Shown piece by piece: positions 35,973 to 45,080 of a stretch of 64,000 bases of DNA (position 1 is its first letter; each line of letters begins with the position of its first letter). The stretch comes from Deltaproteobacteria bacterium (GTDB taxonomy: Bacteria > Myxococcota_A > Polyangia > HGW-17 > SLPX01). The position numbers and the translations under genes were made by a program. The notes beneath the pieces were generated by a model, which saw only the letters and a program-made list of their open reading frames with translations, did not search any database and was not told the DNA's origin. The stretch covers positions 1 through 64,000 of the forward strand of contig JAGGXR010000111.1 of NCBI GenBank assembly GCA_021162935.1, in the 5' to 3' direction.

Positions 35973-37394
35973 ATGGACCGACGAATGCTCATACGTTTCC
36001 TGTCGATTTCCCTCGTTCTCTCCTTGACGGGTTGTGCGAAGTCTTGGTCGGCCCACCAGTCGAACACAAACAAAGACTCTGGGGTTGGGCCCTTTGACGG
36101 TACCACGGGAAAACTCGCCACCGGCGAACGCTGCACCGCATCGTCCGACTGCACAAGCGGCCTCTGCCTGGGTGTCGGCACTGAACTGCTCTGTTCGGAA
36201 CTCTGTGGCCCATGCCCCAAACCAACGTATTGCAGCCATGTGGATCCCCACACGGCACCTGACGGCGAGGAGCCGGCTGCCAGCGGATTCTACTGCCTGC
36301 CCGATCGAGGGGGCCTGTGCAAACCCTGCGGCTCCGACGTAAACTGCACCTATCCAGGCGACAAGTGCCTCGACTTGGGAGGCGGCGAGAAGGCCTGCGG
36401 TCGGGACTGTTCATACGACCAAACCTGCCCAGTGGGGTATCAATGCATCGGTGGACAGTGCCATCCCAACGGAGGGAGCTGTGACTGCACCACCGACCGT
36501 ATCGGCGCAACGCAGCGCTGTGAGAATTCAAACGACTTCGGCACCTGCCATGGCTCGCAAACCTGTTCGACCACCGGATGGGAGGACTGCGATGCGCAAG
36601 AACCTGGCCCCGAGGTCTGTAACGGCCTCGATGACGACTGCGATGGTGTCCTGCCCGACGATGAAAAAGACACGGACGGCAACGGCATCATCCAATGCCA
36701 AGAACACTGTCAGCCGCAACCAGAGCAATGCAACCTCAAAGATGACGACTGCAATTCCGTCGTGGACGATGGCGACCCCGTTGTCATGTGTGGCTCCGTG
36801 GATCACGGCCTGCCTGCATGCGTGGCCGGAGCATGTCAGATCGACCGATGCGACGACGGCTACAGAGACCTCGACGAAAGCTTCGACAATGGATGCGAAT
36901 GTCAGATCCCGCCGTCCGGCGGTACCGCCTGCGCCGCAGCGGAAAACCTTGGCTCGGTGGATGACTCGGGCCAAATCCTCACGGTGGGCACGGTTTTGGG
37001 TCAGGACGAAGAGGTCTGGTACAAAGTGCAGTCCGTGGATCTTCCCGAAGGAGCAAACAGCACCTGCGACACCTTTCACTTCCGCGCCCAGTTCACGTCC
37101 AATCCAGACGACTCCTACTTGATGGATGTATTTTCGGGCGACTGCACGCAACAGGCCGTCTGCCCGCAATCCATGACCGATTTTTCCTGGTACACAAACT
37201 TCCGCCAGGGTTCCGGTTCATCTGCCATCGGTGAATGTGACTGTCTCGACGATCCCACGCAGAACGGCGAGGGGTACAACCAATGCCAGGACAACAGTGC
37301 CACCTATCTGATCCGAGTCTACAAGATCCCAAACGGCACAGTCAGCTGCCAGGCATTCCAACTGGAAGTCTCGAATGGCGTCTACTCGCCGTAG
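35973..37394 (+). CDS. Cys-rich MopE-like lipoprotein
   Basis: A 473-residue surface lipoprotein. The signal (MDRRMLIRFLSISLVLSLTGC) ends in a lipobox. The mature part has over 35 Cys residues in spaced pairs (CTASSDCTSGLC, CGPCPKPTYC). Two MopE-type putative metal-binding units follow (PEVCNGLDDDCDGVLPDDEK and EQCNLKDDDCNSVVDDGD). The C-terminal 150 residues form a beta-rich domain with CDTFHFRAQFTSNPDDSYLMD. Such proteins are common in Myxococcota and are thought to bind copper or calcium on the surface. AAGGACC precedes the ATG. It lies 119 bases before a radical SAM gene on the same strand. Confidence 0.88.
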   Translation: MDRRMLIRFLSISLVLSLTGCAKSWSAHQSNTNKDSGVGPFDGTTGKLATGERCTASSDCTSGLCLGVGTELLCSELCGPCPKPTYCSHVDPHTAPDGEEPAASGFYCLPDRGGLCKPCGSDVNCTYPGDKCLDLGGGEKACGRDCSYDQTCPVGYQCIGGQCHPNGGSCDCTTDRIGATQRCENSNDFGTCHGSQTCSTTGWEDCDAQEPGPEVCNGLDDDCDGVLPDDEKDTDGNGIIQCQEHCQPQPEQCNLKDDDCNSVVDDGDPVVMCGSVDHGLPACVAGACQIDRCDDGYRDLDESFDNGCECQIPPSGGTACAAAENLGSVDDSGQILTVGTVLGQDEEVWYKVQSVDLPEGANSTCDTFHFRAQFTSNPDDSYLMDVFSGDCTQQAVCPQSMTDFSWYTNFRQGSGSSAIGECDCLDDPTQNGEGYNQCQDNSATYLIRVYKIPNGTVSCQAFQLEVSNGVYSP

Positions 37395-37513
37395 GGAATC
37401 CGGGACATTGTGGTGCCACGAACATCAGTTGAGGACTTCCAGAGACCCGGACCGACGATGCTGTGGACCTGATGAGTCGCATCAGTTCTTCTCGGCCGGG
37501 ACGTGACACGGCG

Positions 37514-38590
37514 ATGAAGCACAAAAGATTGCACCAAGACCAAGTCGCACTGTCCCAAACGCCTGAGTCAGCCCAGCGACCTCGTCAGCCGGCCCTGCGC
37601 GTGGACATGAAACTGGGGTTCTCCTGCAACAACAGGTGTCAATTCTGCGTCCAAGGCGACAAGCGACGCCGCTACGCCGACCTATCGACAGAAGAGGCCA
37701 AGAAACGCATCGACCAGGCAGCCGCCCACACGGATCGCATCGTGCTCACCGGTGGAGAGGTGACTATCCGAGCGGATCTCGTGGACCTCGTCTCCCATGC
37801 CCGCAAACGAGGTTTCCGTGAGATCCAGATCCAGACCAACGGCCGGATGCTCGCCTACGAGGCCCTCTGCCACAACCTGGTCGCCGCCGGGGCCACAGAG
37901 TTCTCACCAGCTCTCCATGGACATATCGCCTCCTTGCACGACTTCCTGACACGGGTGCCCGGGAGTTTCGACCAGACGGTCCAGGGGATCAAGAATCTCG
38001 CCAGCCTCAAGGTCCCAATCGTCACAAACACAGTGATCACACGATCCAATTTCAGGCATCTGGCCGCCCTTGCAAGCCTCCTCATCGACCTGGGTGTCAC
38101 ACAGTATCAATTCGCCTTTGTTCACGGCCTCGGCTCAGCAGCCAAGTACTTCGACTCCATCGTGCCCAGGATGGAGCTCCTCGCCCCCCATATCGCGGCA
38201 GGTCTGGAAAAGGGTCGCCAGGCTGGCGTCTGGGCCACCACCGAAGCCATCCCGCCCTGTCTGCTCAAGGGATACGAAGAACACATGGCTGAGTGGGTCG
38301 TACCCGACACGCGCATCTACGACGCCGACATGATCCTCGACAGCTATCAGGAATACCGGTGGACCGAAGGCAAAACCAAGGGTCCGGCCTGCCGTTCCTG
38401 TGGTTGGTATCCGTGGTGCGAAGGCCCATGGCGCGAGTATCCCGAACGGTTTGGTTGGTCCGAGTTCCGATCCGTAGCCCCTAAAGACGTTCGGAGGAGC
38501 ATCGCCGAGGCTAGGCGTCGGGCACCCAGTCGGGTTGAGACTCTGCCGACGACTCCAAAACCTGTCGTCGCACCAACGCCGGATCGATGA
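37514..38590 (+). CDS. Radical SAM enzyme with C-terminal Cys motif, unknown substrate
   Basis: A 358-residue radical SAM protein. The cluster motif is Cys38, Cys42, Cys45 in FSCNNRCQFCVQGD. TGGEVTIR follows as the SAM-contacting 'GGE' motif. A second Cys set near the end, Cys293, Cys296 and Cys302 in CRSCGWYPWCEG, followed by REYPERFGWSEFRSV, suggests an auxiliary iron-sulfur cluster like that of SPASM or twitch proteins. The start is uncertain; ATG at 37514 is used, with an in-frame GTG at 37463. Its last 80 bases overlap the end of the convergent radical SAM gene. It could modify a peptide or cofactor. The Cys-rich lipoprotein upstream is a possible partner, which is only inference. Confidence 0.87.
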   Translation: MKHKRLHQDQVALSQTPESAQRPRQPALRVDMKLGFSCNNRCQFCVQGDKRRRYADLSTEEAKKRIDQAAAHTDRIVLTGGEVTIRADLVDLVSHARKRGFREIQIQTNGRMLAYEALCHNLVAAGATEFSPALHGHIASLHDFLTRVPGSFDQTVQGIKNLASLKVPIVTNTVITRSNFRHLAALASLLIDLGVTQYQFAFVHGLGSAAKYFDSIVPRMELLAPHIAAGLEKGRQAGVWATTEAIPPCLLKGYEEHMAEWVVPDTRIYDADMILDSYQEYRWTEGKTKGPACRSCGWYPWCEGPWREYPERFGWSEFRSVAPKDVRRSIAEARRRAPSRVETLPTTPKPVVAPTPDR

Positions 38591-39479
38591 ACAGAGGATA
38601 CAGTTCATTCGGATCGAAAAACTCGGGTGCACCGTACAGGCCTGCACAAATCGAATCGAGACGACAGACCCTGCAGGCCTGTGCCTTGAAATGGGTCCAC
38701 TCCGTCTGGAGCACCGTGCCCTTGTGCTCGTCCAAAAAATGGACCACGCGTTCCTCCTTCTTGACGATCTTACGGGTTTCGGTGGAACAACGTGCAAAAT
38801 CAGCCATATAGCATAAAGGAACCCGCTCCACCCGGAACGTGCGCCGCGACCGGGCGACCAGGGCCATCGCGCGATGCAGGCTCACCTCGAAATCCGCCAG
38901 CCGGGGAATCACCTCAGGATTCTGTCGACAACGATCCGTATCAGGATCCAGGTTGTTCCAGACGAAATGACGAATATGGGGATGGTGCTCCAGGACCCAG
39001 GCAACGGTCTCTTCGAGGTGATCCGCATTCTGGGCACAAATGACCGTGTTGATATCGGCGGTCACCCCAACCACGGCCAGGTTGGAGAGGGCAGCGGCGA
39101 TATTCTCGAAAGACCTCGGGTTTTTCGTGATCCAGGCCTGAACCTCCGATCGACTCGAATGGAGCGAGACATGCACGTGATCGAGGCCCGCCGCCACCAG
39201 GAGTTCCAGGTAGTCCAAGTTCGACAGGCGCTGCCCATTCGTGATGATCCTGGCGGCAATGCCCATGCCCGAACAAAAACGAATGGCATCTGGGAGAAAA
39301 GGCACCAACGTCGGTTCTCCACCGGTGAGGATCACGCCATCGTAGCCCCGTTCGGCCAGGTCTTCGATCTGCGCGCAGACGCGGTCGAACGTTTGCTTCG
39401 TCTCGATGGGCGGATTGGAGCAAAAACGACAATGCTGATTGCAGTCGCGGGTCACCTGAATGTAGCCGAGATTCGCCAT
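38511..39479 (-). CDS. Second radical SAM enzyme, convergent partner
   Basis: A 322-residue radical SAM protein. The cluster motif is Cys13, Cys17, Cys20 in RDCNQHCRFCSNPP, followed by LTGGEPTLVPFLP. The C-terminal motif Cys269, Cys272, Cys278 in CRVCRLDSICAG has the same CX2CX5CxG spacing as the convergent enzyme, so both probably carry an auxiliary cluster. The MoaA/SPASM-like fold is clear, but no substrate family is recognised. It is transcribed divergently from a Cys-containing lipoprotein gene across a 153-base region with an inverted repeat. The 80-base tail overlap with the opposite gene is unusual for two enzymes of the same superfamily. Confidence 0.88.
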   Translation of the reverse strand: MANLGYIQVTRDCNQHCRFCSNPPIETKQTFDRVCAQIEDLAERGYDGVILTGGEPTLVPFLPDAIRFCSGMGIAARIITNGQRLSNLDYLELLVAAGLDHVHVSLHSSRSEVQAWITKNPRSFENIAAALSNLAVVGVTADINTVICAQNADHLEETVAWVLEHHPHIRHFVWNNLDPDTDRCRQNPEVIPRLADFEVSLHRAMALVARSRRTFRVERVPLCYMADFARCSTETRKIVKKEERVVHFLDEHKGTVLQTEWTHFKAQACRVCRLDSICAGLYGAPEFFDPNELYPLFIDPALVRRQVLESSAESQPDWVPDA

Positions 39480-39632: not shown

Positions 39633-40436
39633 ATGAAACGTCTTTTTTTTCTTTCGATGCCCATCCTGGCGATGTTCGTCCTGGGGAACTGCATCCTCTC
39701 AAAGAATGTGGACGACTTCGATTTCCAACTTCCAAACAAAACATTCGAAGTGGATGTCTCCCTCCTCGGCCTGAGCACAACGACGGATATTCAATGCTCC
39801 GGGGCCGTCGATACCTGCAGCCAAGTGAACGCGGCCCTCGTCTGCGACAAGCAGGCCGGGTACTGCACCCTCGCCCAGAACTCAACCTTTCCCAACATCG
39901 ACTGTTCCGCCCAGGATATCTGCCAGTCCTTTGGAGAGGTGGTCCATTGCGACGGATCAGTCTGCCGGGCAGCCGTGCCCCTACAGCTGAGCGCTTCGGT
40001 CAATCTCGCCGAGGAAGTCCCGGAACTCAAAGACGTGGCGAATCTGACCTTCACGGAAGTGCGGCTCAAGGACCTGTACATGGACATTGAAGTGAACAGT
40101 CTCGGGATAGACCTGCCCCCCATGGACCTCTATGTCGGCCCGGACGCACTGGCCACCCTGACGCTCGATGGAGACGGAAACGTCACAGATATGGACGTCT
40201 CCAAAGTCGGCACCATTCCTGTAACACCGGCAGGATTCACAGGGCGCCAAGAGGTCGACATGTCCGATGCCGGACGCCACTCCCTGACGAAACGCATGAA
40301 AACTCCCGCTGTTCCCTTCCGATTTTTCCTCGTGGCGCAGATCGCCCTTGACCCCGGCGACCCACTACCAGACCTGACGGCGGGACAGGTGCAGGGCGTC
40401 GTATCGGGACACGCCACCGCCAGCTTGGCTCGATGA
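39633..40436 (+). CDS. Lipoprotein with Cys pairs, unknown function
   Basis: A 267-residue lipoprotein. The signal MKRLFFLSMPILAMFVLGNC ends in a lipobox. Residues 55-115 carry spaced Cys residues (CSGAVDTCSQ, CDKQAGYC, CSAQDICQSFGEVVHCDGSVC), reminiscent of the disulfide-rich repeats of the MopE-like lipoprotein on the other side of the radical SAM pair. The rest is beta-rich with an all-beta 'LKDLYMDIEVNSLGIDLPP' segment. Probably an envelope protein. The shared Cys pattern on both flanks of the radical SAM genes may be meaningful or just typical of this organism. Confidence 0.78.
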   Translation: MKRLFFLSMPILAMFVLGNCILSKNVDDFDFQLPNKTFEVDVSLLGLSTTTDIQCSGAVDTCSQVNAALVCDKQAGYCTLAQNSTFPNIDCSAQDICQSFGEVVHCDGSVCRAAVPLQLSASVNLAEEVPELKDVANLTFTEVRLKDLYMDIEVNSLGIDLPPMDLYVGPDALATLTLDGDGNVTDMDVSKVGTIPVTPAGFTGRQEVDMSDAGRHSLTKRMKTPAVPFRFFLVAQIALDPGDPLPDLTAGQVQGVVSGHATASLAR

Positions 40437-40668
40437 TCGTCAGCAGGTGCCGCAGCATTCTTCTTCGCTTCCGACAGAAATACGTTCGACAGGAACCGAA
40501 ATGGATTCCGTGCTTTTTCCTGCTGGATCGCAGCCTGTTCATGCGCTATCATGCCGTGTATCAAGTAAGCAAGGTGACGATTTTCGCAGCGACACACAGA
40601 GCAACCACGGACCCCTGGAGCGCCGAACGAGAAGCCCCCGACGCACAGGGATGGAGGTACGACGGACC

Positions 40669-41943
40669 ATGACCAAACACGCATTGAGCTTCGGAGTAAT
40701 CGGTCTCGGGCAAGGCGGCGGAAACCTGGCTGCAGAGTTTCACGCACTGGGTTATCCTGCCATCGCCGTCAACGTATCGGAGGCTGACCTTTCGTCTATC
40801 GAAGGACTCGAAGACGACGCCAAACTGTTCATCGGTAAAGAAGGGATGAATGGAACGGGACAAAATCGATCCGTGGCCAAGGAACGCATCGAGGCTCAAT
40901 CCGACGCCATCATGAAGCTCGTCGACTCGAAGTTGGGCGAAGCTGAAATCCTCATGGTCACCACCGGCCTTGGAGGAGGAACAGGTGGCGCCGCCGCCGA
41001 CTTGGTCCTCAAAATTCAAGGCCAAGAGCGTCCCGTGGTCGTGATTGCAATGCTGCCACGCCAATCGGAAAGTCATGTGGCTAAAATCTGTGCCCTTCAG
41101 GGACTGAACGATCTGTTGGATACGGACTTCGCCTCATTGATTCTGGTGGACAACCAAAAGGTCTTCGACGTCCACTCGTCTGAAGGTGTTGCCAGCTTCC
41201 TGCAGAAGGGCAATGCGGAAATCGCTTCGCTGCTGGACCGCTTCAGCCACATCGGCGAGCCGTCCAACATGAAGAGCATCCAGACGATCGATGACGAGGG
41301 ACTTCGGAAGGTCTTCCTGTCAGGCGGCATTTCCTTGCTCGGTGTCGCGGAACCGAGTTCTCCGCTGACCACGGACAACCTGATGGATGCATTCCAAAAC
41401 CAGGTGACGAGCAACGCGCTGCTGGCAGAAACGTTCGATCTGTCCGACATCATGGCGGCAGCCGCGATCCTCGTTGCTTCAGATGACGTTCTGAGCGAAA
41501 CGCCGGCCGATGAAATCGACCGTTTCTGGAAGGAACTCAAGAAGGCAACGTCGGGCGCCACCCAATTCACCGGCATCTATGCGGCAGATGGATCCTCGGC
41601 ACTCTACGCACTTGCCGGGGGCCTGCCCCTGCCAACCAGAGCCTCGGCCCTCCTTCAAGAGGCCACCGAGGAGGCTGCTCGATTTTCGACCAAGAAAGAG
41701 GCCAAACGCCGCATCAAAAAACTGGATCTGTCCGGTCTTTCTCTTGGTGGCAGCCCGGTCTCGGACTCCGCACCAGACACGCCAACCAAGGGAATGGCGA
41801 AGCACCCTGGTCCCAACACTGAAGACGAATCGGCCAAAAACGACCAGGACGACGAGCCACAAGAAGAAATCAGTGAGCCCGTCGAAGAAGAAGTGGTCGA
41901 AGAAGAAGTTCTCGACCTAGACGAGGGCTGGGACGAAGAGTAG
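40669..41943 (+). CDS. Divergent tubulin/FtsZ-superfamily GTPase
   Basis: A 424-residue protein of the tubulin/FtsZ superfamily but not canonical FtsZ. The N-terminal nucleotide loop is FGVIGLGQGGGNLAAEF (8-24). The tubulin signature reads GLGGGTGGAAA (100-110; FtsZ has GGGTGTG). VVVIAMLPRQSESH...ALQGLNDLLDTDFASLILVDN matches the H7-to-T6 region of FtsZ and TubZ. In the T7 loop the NxDxxD motif appears as TxDxxG (Thr206, Asp208, Gly211), so hydrolysis may be altered. The last 75 residues are acidic and disordered, ending EEVLDLDEGWDEE. ATG at 40669 follows GGAGG at a long spacing. It probably forms cytoskeletal filaments; the role is unknown. No ParB/TubR-like partner is adjacent. Confidence 0.82.
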   Translation: MTKHALSFGVIGLGQGGGNLAAEFHALGYPAIAVNVSEADLSSIEGLEDDAKLFIGKEGMNGTGQNRSVAKERIEAQSDAIMKLVDSKLGEAEILMVTTGLGGGTGGAAADLVLKIQGQERPVVVIAMLPRQSESHVAKICALQGLNDLLDTDFASLILVDNQKVFDVHSSEGVASFLQKGNAEIASLLDRFSHIGEPSNMKSIQTIDDEGLRKVFLSGGISLLGVAEPSSPLTTDNLMDAFQNQVTSNALLAETFDLSDIMAAAAILVASDDVLSETPADEIDRFWKELKKATSGATQFTGIYAADGSSALYALAGGLPLPTRASALLQEATEEAARFSTKKEAKRRIKKLDLSGLSLGGSPVSDSAPDTPTKGMAKHPGPNTEDESAKNDQDDEPQEEISEPVEEEVVEEEVLDLDEGWDEE

Positions 41944-44299: not shown

Positions 44300-44869
44300 C
44301 TACGAAGAACCTGACCAATGTCTGGTGGTGCCTACATTCCGCAGGACACGATCCGCATTGGCCGGGTTGTCATGATCCTCGACCCAGCGTCCCGGATTCC
44401 CCATGATATATTCCCGAATGCGGTCCAGGTCCTTTTCGTTGCGCACGACGTGTTCATAGTAGTTACGCTGCCAGACCCGCACAACAGAAATATTGCTCAT
44501 CCGGTTGATTCCAATCGTTACGCGCCCCTTGAACCCTCGTACCACATTCCCCAGCGTAGGGGCGCGATTCATCGCGCCCTCCGCTCCTGCGGCCGACGAC
44601 GATTCGTCCGGTGCCAACACAATGATACCGTGGACATGGTTTGGCATGATCACAAATGCGTCTGTTTCCATCCTCGCGTAGTGCCGTGGCAGATCATCCC
44701 ACACCTTCTCGACAACCCGCCCTGCATCGTTCAGCACCATCGTGCCATCCACAATCCGTCCGAACAGGCATCTGTGCTCATGCGTGCAGATCGTGACAAA
44801 ATATGCCCCGGCACGACCATAGTCGTATCCAGCAAGCCGCATCACCCGACGCTCGTGTTTCTTTTCCAT
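44300..44869 (-). CDS. REP-associated tyrosine transposase (RAYT, Y1/HUH family)
   Basis: A 189-residue single-strand nuclease that recognises and spreads REP palindromes. The HUH motif is MPNHVHGIIVL. The catalytic Tyr region is RVWQRNYYEHVVRNEKDLDRI with IREYIMGNPGRW after it. The N-terminal YFVTICTHEHRCLFG is a family hallmark. The ATG at 44869 has GGGGAAG upstream. The residues [17 protein letters not shown] between the HUH and Tyr parts are encoded by an inverted REP copy inside the gene. The TAG stop is made of CTA from the REP flank. The frame is intact, so the enzyme may be active. Confidence 0.93.
   Translation of the reverse strand: MEKKHERRVMRLAGYDYGRAGAYFVTICTHEHRCLFGRIVDGTMVLNDAGRVVEKVWDDLPRHYARMETDAFVIMPNHVHGIIVLAPDESSSAAGAEGAMNRAPTLGNVVRGFKGRVTIGINRMSNISVVRVWQRNYYEHVVRNEKDLDRIREYIMGNPGRWVEDHDNPANADRVLRNVGTTRHWSGSS
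44560..44579 (-). repeat. Inverted REP copy inside the transposase gene
   Basis: GGGCGCGAT-TC-ATCGCGCCC, with CGTAG on its left, so it is in the opposite orientation to the flanking copies. It keeps the transposase reading frame and encodes part of EGAMNRAPT. Confidence 0.9.
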
Positions 44870-44942
44870 GTCTTCCCCGACACAATGGCCCAATGCCCAT
44901 TTTTCCGCAGAAGGCGATGCCCCAAGGCCCTCGCCTCTCGGA

Positions 44943-45080
44943 GGGCGCGATGAATCCTTGGGCGCGATGAATCCTTGGGCGCGATGAATCGCGCCCCTAC
45001 GAAAACGAAAAAACTCGTTTCCTTGGGCCATCGCGTCCTCGGAGGGCGCGATGAATCCGTGGGCGCGATGAATCGCGCCC

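Follow-up and report, generated by a model that had tools for sequence, protein, structure and literature searches.

Within the tubulin/FtsZ superfamily of GTPases, TubZ has been described as a plasmid or phage protein of DNA movement. TubZ proteins have flexible tails, some short and acidic and others long, which touch the next subunit; the tail is required for assembly and bears the partner-binding site (PMC5322520). Phage TubZ carries an acidic C-terminal knuckle (PMC3678025). The E200A variant of Clostridium phage TubZ (CbTubZ) assembles, and 80% of the nucleotide in its filaments is GTP, compared to 4% for the wild type (PMC5322520). The matching change in E. coli FtsZ, D212G, did not support division without suppressors (PMC5405962). 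Bacteria can also harbor additional FtsZ-like proteins: FtsZ-like 1 (FtsZl1) is characterized by Tubulin_2, a coiled coil, and a vWA operon, and FtsZ-like 2 (FtsZl2) by an alpha/beta C-terminal region of about 300 aa (PMC2875224).

Here, we analyzed a TubZ-like gene in a 64,000 nt stretch of DNA from a Deltaproteobacteria bacterium (contig JAGGXR010000111.1), which is referred to as the window.

The Gene and Its Surroundings

The open reading frame has 424 codons for a protein of 424 aa and contains every motif quoted by the initial annotation (Table 1). A GGAGGT sequence is located about 10 nt upstream of the ATG at 40669. For the in-frame GTG at 40447, the codon usage of the extension was -0.19 per codon, compared to +0.13 to +0.30 for genes. 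Since the frame from this GTG has non-coding codon usage, the start was assigned to the ATG at 40669, and in the alignment the orthologs share the same start residue with the window protein. Initiation at the upstream GTG is highly improbable.

Table 1. Features of the TubZ-like locus (positions in the window).
Feature	Position	Strand	Basis
TubZ-like tubulin/FtsZ-superfamily GTPase gene, 424 aa	40669..41943	+	domain searches, predicted fold; start by ortholog alignment and codon usage
Ribosome-binding site GGAGGT	40653..40658	+	sequence
Intergenic stretch 5' of the gene, lacking iterons and a TubR-like gene	40437..40668	+	sequence and repeat search, codon usage
79-codon open frame, near-non-coding codon usage	40433-40672	+	codon usage
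T1 loop VIGLGQGGGN, residues 10-19	40696..40725	+	alignment
T4 signature loop GLGGGTGGAAA, residues 100-110	40966..40998	+	alignment; Thr105 and GGGTG core retained
T7 loop TIDDEG, residues 206-211	41284..41301	+	alignment; Asp208 retained, Gly211 in place of acidic residue
KKLDLSGL motif, residues 350-357, after helix H11	41716..41739	+	alignment; conserved through family, also in several mobile tubulins
C-terminal tail, residues 358-424, predicted disordered	41740..41940	+	AlphaFold model and composition

The genes rlmN, ndk, sucCD, and metK follow on the 3' side, and therefore the locus is chromosomal. Two radical SAM genes and genes for predicted lipoproteins are located on the 5' side. 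This agrees with the setting described by the initial annotation, and the setting is not kept in relatives. No neighbor was common to the window gene and its orthologs that could be an operon partner. The two radical SAM genes, 37463-38590 (+) and 38511-39479 (-), are HxsC/HxsC4-like and convergent, with 3' ends overlapping by about 80 nt and predicted lipoprotein genes on either side. The predicted lipoprotein encoded at 35973-37394 (+) is Cys-rich and has weak MopE-like metal-binding motifs. Adjoining ndk, an IS200/Y1-like transposase (possibly REP-associated) is encoded at 44300-45031 (-), as indicated by a weak Pfam match below the cut-off. PADLOC returned no match, and a defense system, being unsupported by this search, was ruled out. 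An Rfam search of the window for RNA elements also gave no match.

A gene of about 100 aa was found directly upstream of plasmid TubZ genes and of phage G TubZ, and TubR-like winged-helix genes were present 5' of several viral-contig members. At the window locus, the position of TubR is occupied by the 79-codon frame listed in Table 1, which overlaps the upstream stop codon and, by ATGA, the TubZ-like start. No counterpart of this frame was present in orthologs. Neither a TubR-like gene nor iterons or centromere-like repeats were found at the window locus, the relatives likewise lacked them, and no plasmid genes were present near the locus. With no TubR, no iterons, and only this near-non-coding frame, which is missing in orthologs, a type III partition locus was ruled out. 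Three phage-contig tubulins (L065, L118, and L066), which belong to the mobile group closest to the chromosomal family, have no TubR-like neighbors either, and each lies near a phage-type DNA helicase.

Relationship to TubZ, FtsZ, and CetZ

The window protein scored 62 bits against Pfam Tubulin (cut-off 33), and the AlphaFold model was confident up to residue ~330. Because of this score, and because the core of the model mostly exceeded a pLDDT of 90, the superfamily match is not due to chance. Against the NCBIfam FtsZ model TIGR00065 the protein reached 64.6 bits, far less than the cut-off of 295. Domain scans covered 26 members of the family. FtsZ_C (PF12327) was found in none of them, with the FtsZ of the same genome as control (116.8 bits), and CetZ_C (PF21011) was also found in none, with a CetZ control at 270.6 bits. 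Tubulin_2 (PF13809) did not match the window protein and gave two weak matches among the 26 members. TubZ-like_C (PF22453) was detected in 14 of the 26, among them the ortholog L028 (27.9 bits) and L025 (34.0 bits) at a cut-off of 26; the window protein itself gave no match. In the controls, CetZ_C hit only CetZ, FtsZ_C only FtsZ, and TubZ-like_C plasmid TubZ.

When the family profile was compared with the PDB, TubZ 4ei7 ranked first (3e-35, nearly full length), followed by CetZ2 (6e-30) and FtsZ (1e-23). Profile-profile comparison of the window clade gave 2e-41 for phage tubulins, 2e-34 and 6e-34 for plasmid TubZ, 2e-18 for FtsZ, and 5e-17 for CetZ. All top Foldseek matches of the predicted model were TubZ (2xka, 6e-24; 4ei7, TM 0.80, rmsd 3.0 A), with CetZ and FtsZ ranking behind, and the best fold match among the BFVD viral models was a Caudovirales phage 'FtsZ' (2.7e-28). 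The predicted activation domain appears to be of the TubZ fold. By its sequence, the window protein is a tubulin/FtsZ-superfamily GTPase but not an FtsZ. Profile search, profile-profile comparison, and the predicted fold all identify plasmid/phage TubZ proteins as its closest characterized relatives. A canonical FtsZ, or a copy from a recent duplication of FtsZ, was ruled out on the basis of cut-offs, domains, and motifs; the deep tree on its own leaves room for kinship. FtsZl1 was ruled out by domain content. The view of the initial annotation that the protein is a divergent GTPase outside FtsZ was thus borne out: the profile search did not place it inside canonical FtsZ, and the predicted structure has the tubulin core, with a fold matched to TubZ, CetZ, and FtsZ.

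Distribution, Phylogeny, and Selection

The genome is 97% complete and encodes only one other member of the superfamily, a canonical FtsZ, whose gene adjoins ftsA on another contig. As the initial annotation had stated, the window gene is part of neither a division cluster nor a plasmid partition locus. A scan of the whole genome collection with the single protein as query gave no matches; with an alignment as query, relatives were recovered. In the same order, searches of related genomes yielded homologs of 39-41% identity from two genomes; the gene is present in 3/13 genomes of the order. Alignment-based searches found it in 22/318 genomes of its class and, outside the class, in one sampled genome of the phylum and in Nitrospirota genomes. 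Two of these genomes also encode canonical FtsZ. In an early family profile, members scored >245 bits and canonical FtsZ at most 71.

The family set comprises 30 sequences. In a maximum-likelihood tree of 57 rows, the 30 chromosomal members formed one clade (99/98), with the window protein in a subclade of 12 rows (100/100). Groupings of the family with FtsZ and with CetZ were both not rejected by the AU test (p 0.28 and 0.11, respectively). The core dN/dS ranged from 0.05 to 0.26 within the family, and pairs with altered T7 were near 0.26. The family is under purifying selection, altered-T7 pairs included. In one subgroup, a Ser/Thr protein kinase gene is located directly 3' of the TubZ-like gene (L095:8530-9921, L091:3357-4844, L054:2261-3388).

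A search of the literature accessible without subscription found no description of chromosomal TubZ in these phyla, and the chromosomal family is apparently undescribed. The initial annotation had proposed a new cytoskeletal family. The newness holds for the family, for which no description was found, but not for the kind of protein, since TubZ is a close known kind.

The T7 Loop and the C-Terminal Region

Loops T1, T4, and T6 of the window protein are intact, and the signature and the TxDxxG form of T7 quoted by the initial annotation are present at residues 100-110 and 206-211. In the alignment, T7 of FtsZ was NVDxxD, and that of TubZ and of phage tubulins lacked Asn and followed xxDxx(D/E). 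Members of the family have the consensus (S/T)xDxxD; both aspartates are kept in 22/30, and the last position is acidic in 23/30. In view of these consensus sequences, TxDxxG is a T7 of the TubZ type, altered solely at the last acid. The last residue is Glu in the ortholog L028, Gln in L023, Gly211 in the window protein, Ala in L063 and L064, and Arg, Arg, and Gln in L060-L062. Mapping of these states on the tree thus indicates at least four separate losses of the last acid. We conclude that the T7 change is real and limited to some branches.

Gly211 aligns with E200 of CbTubZ, which corresponds to chain residue 202 of 3v3t (E202, the second acid); the chain is numbered +2, since the T100A change appears at position 102 of the chain. 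The acidic T7 residue mutated in GTP-locked TubZ filaments is Gly in the window protein; slow hydrolysis is therefore plausible, and by analogy with this distant homolog the filaments may be unusually stable. Asp208 is retained; a total loss of hydrolysis is therefore not implied, and some hydrolysis may remain. Three members (L060, L061, and L062) have a degenerate T7, in L061 together with T4, and are candidate pseudo-GTPases. Genomes G290 and G291 each encode two paralogs (L054/L055 and L064/L063), one of them with intact T4/T7; in the second paralog T4 is changed to GGSVG, T7 is lost, and the disordered tail comprises 350-430 aa.

The LDL(S/G) motif following H11 was present family-wide wherever the C-terminus was readable and also in some mobile tubulins; this conserved motif is new here. 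The C-terminus of the window protein ends EEVLDLDEGWDEE, and the last 65 residues include 24 D/E and 3 K/R, in line with the long acidic tail noted by the initial annotation. Since the tails of TubZ and phage TubZ are similar, this tail is of a known kind (PMC5322520, PMC3678025). The altered T7 and the acidic tail had been taken as marks of newness. This did not hold up, because an Asn-less T7 and an acidic tail are both ordinary for TubZ and phage tubulins (PMC5322520, PMC3678025); among these oddities only the residue at the end of T7 stands out, and both acids are kept in 22/30 members. A HEAT-like helical module was present at the C-terminus of many relatives from the other subclade and of the Nitrospirota members and was missing in the branch of the window protein.

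Discussion

We favor, with a probability of about 0.6, a TubZ family that is chromosomal and whose representative in the window would form GTP-bound filaments with slow turnover. While fold and family come from sequence or prediction, we infer polymerization, slow hydrolysis, and a cargo. The protein would bind GTP and probably forms filaments; its subunits would associate head to tail as protofilaments, in which the C-terminal tail would touch the next subunit as in TubZ. With Gly as the last T7 residue the catalytic loop would dock and GTP hydrolysis would be slow; because of the missing acid, the filaments would stay GTP-bound with little turnover. Because TubR and centromere repeats are absent, the protein would no longer move a plasmid. 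Its role is probably that of a stable intracellular scaffold or positioner, with the cargo picked by the tail (by HEAT-like modules in many relatives). Altogether, we infer filaments that reside in the cell and whose cargo is selected by the tail. Points against this reading are the missing TubZ-like_C match of the window protein, the ambiguity of the tree in the AU test, and the lack of a conserved cargo or partner nearby.

The degenerate T7 would also suit a non-polymerizing GTP-binding regulator or scaffold that kept the tubulin fold and lost filament formation, similar to a pseudo-GTPase. T4 and T7 are both lost in L063, L064, and L061, yet L063/L064 are under purifying selection (core dN/dS 0.255). 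However, the window protein has intact T1, T4, and T6, as well as the H11-LDL motif and the acidic tail, which aid TubZ polymerization, and T7 is complete in 22/30 members, which makes a mere regulator unlikely. Its patchy distribution and the location of its nearest non-family relatives beside phage-type helicases on viral contigs could point to a captured plasmid/phage partition gene that persists as a relic without host function. The family as a whole may have come from a mobile element, but a relic is improbable for a monophyletic chromosomal family of 30 members from several families and two phyla, which is under purifying selection, and for a gene in housekeeping surroundings with no plasmid genes nearby.

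Descent from FtsZ or CetZ rather than TubZ, as a second division or cell-shape protein, would fit the best single-sequence PDB match (CetZ2, 2e-16) and the AU test. We give it little credence, since FtsZ_C and CetZ_C were absent from all members scanned although the controls were positive, the T1 GLGQ and the Asn-less T7 are unlike FtsZ, the context is no division cluster, and TubZ was ahead by some 16 orders of magnitude in the profile comparisons.

If a conserved chromosomal TubZ family without TubR is confirmed, tubulins of this type would have been taken up as a cellular cytoskeleton, or would have arisen as one, in bacteria that have large genomes and already possess FtsZ. Lineages that lost the catalytic acid independently and yet stayed under purifying selection would then provide natural tests of tubulin filaments without nucleotide turnover. 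Tentatively, and with less confidence than in the favored reading, we suggest that the TubR-free chromosomal tubulins of Myxococcota and Nitrospirota are a resident cytoskeleton in which several lineages, including that of the window protein, abandoned hydrolysis for static, GTP-locked filaments.

Comparison with Known Systems

Like FtsZl1 and FtsZl2, the protein occurs alongside a canonical FtsZ (PMC2875224). Tubulin_2, the coiled coil, and the vWA operon of FtsZl1 were not seen in the protein or at its locus, and the C-terminal part of about 210 aa, a TubZ-like fold plus a disordered tail, may set it apart from FtsZl2 as described. With FtsZ it shares the GTPase domain and the GGGTG signature, but it has no FtsZ_C and no division-cluster context, T7 is TIDDEG instead of NxDxxD, T1 is not GVGG, and the score is far below the FtsZ cut-off. 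The haloarchaeal shape protein CetZ likewise has Q in T1, DN in T6, and a T7 without Asn; the window protein differs by the lack of CetZ_C, its bacterial origin, and another tail.

Phage tubulins (Bacillus phage G gp138, the L065/L118/L066/L123 type, and PhuZ) are the nearest non-family group by profile-profile comparison, and some have an LDL-type tail. In contrast to them, the window protein is not encoded in a phage, its acidic tail is longer, T4 ends with GGAA and not GSG, and identity is 21-26%. The type III partition systems of plasmids and phages combine TubR upstream, tubC iterons, and location on a plasmid or phage; the window gene is chromosomal, with no TubR gene or iterons upstream, and identity to the plasmid TubZ/RepX group is about 22%. 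Nevertheless, it shares with plasmid TubZ/RepX (Bacillus, 2xka and 4ei7) the fold, the full-length profile match, a T1 of GxGQ or similar, common also to CetZ and phage tubulins, the T7 pattern xxDxx(D/E) without Asn, apart from Gly in place of the last acid, the H11 helix, and the flexible charged tail.
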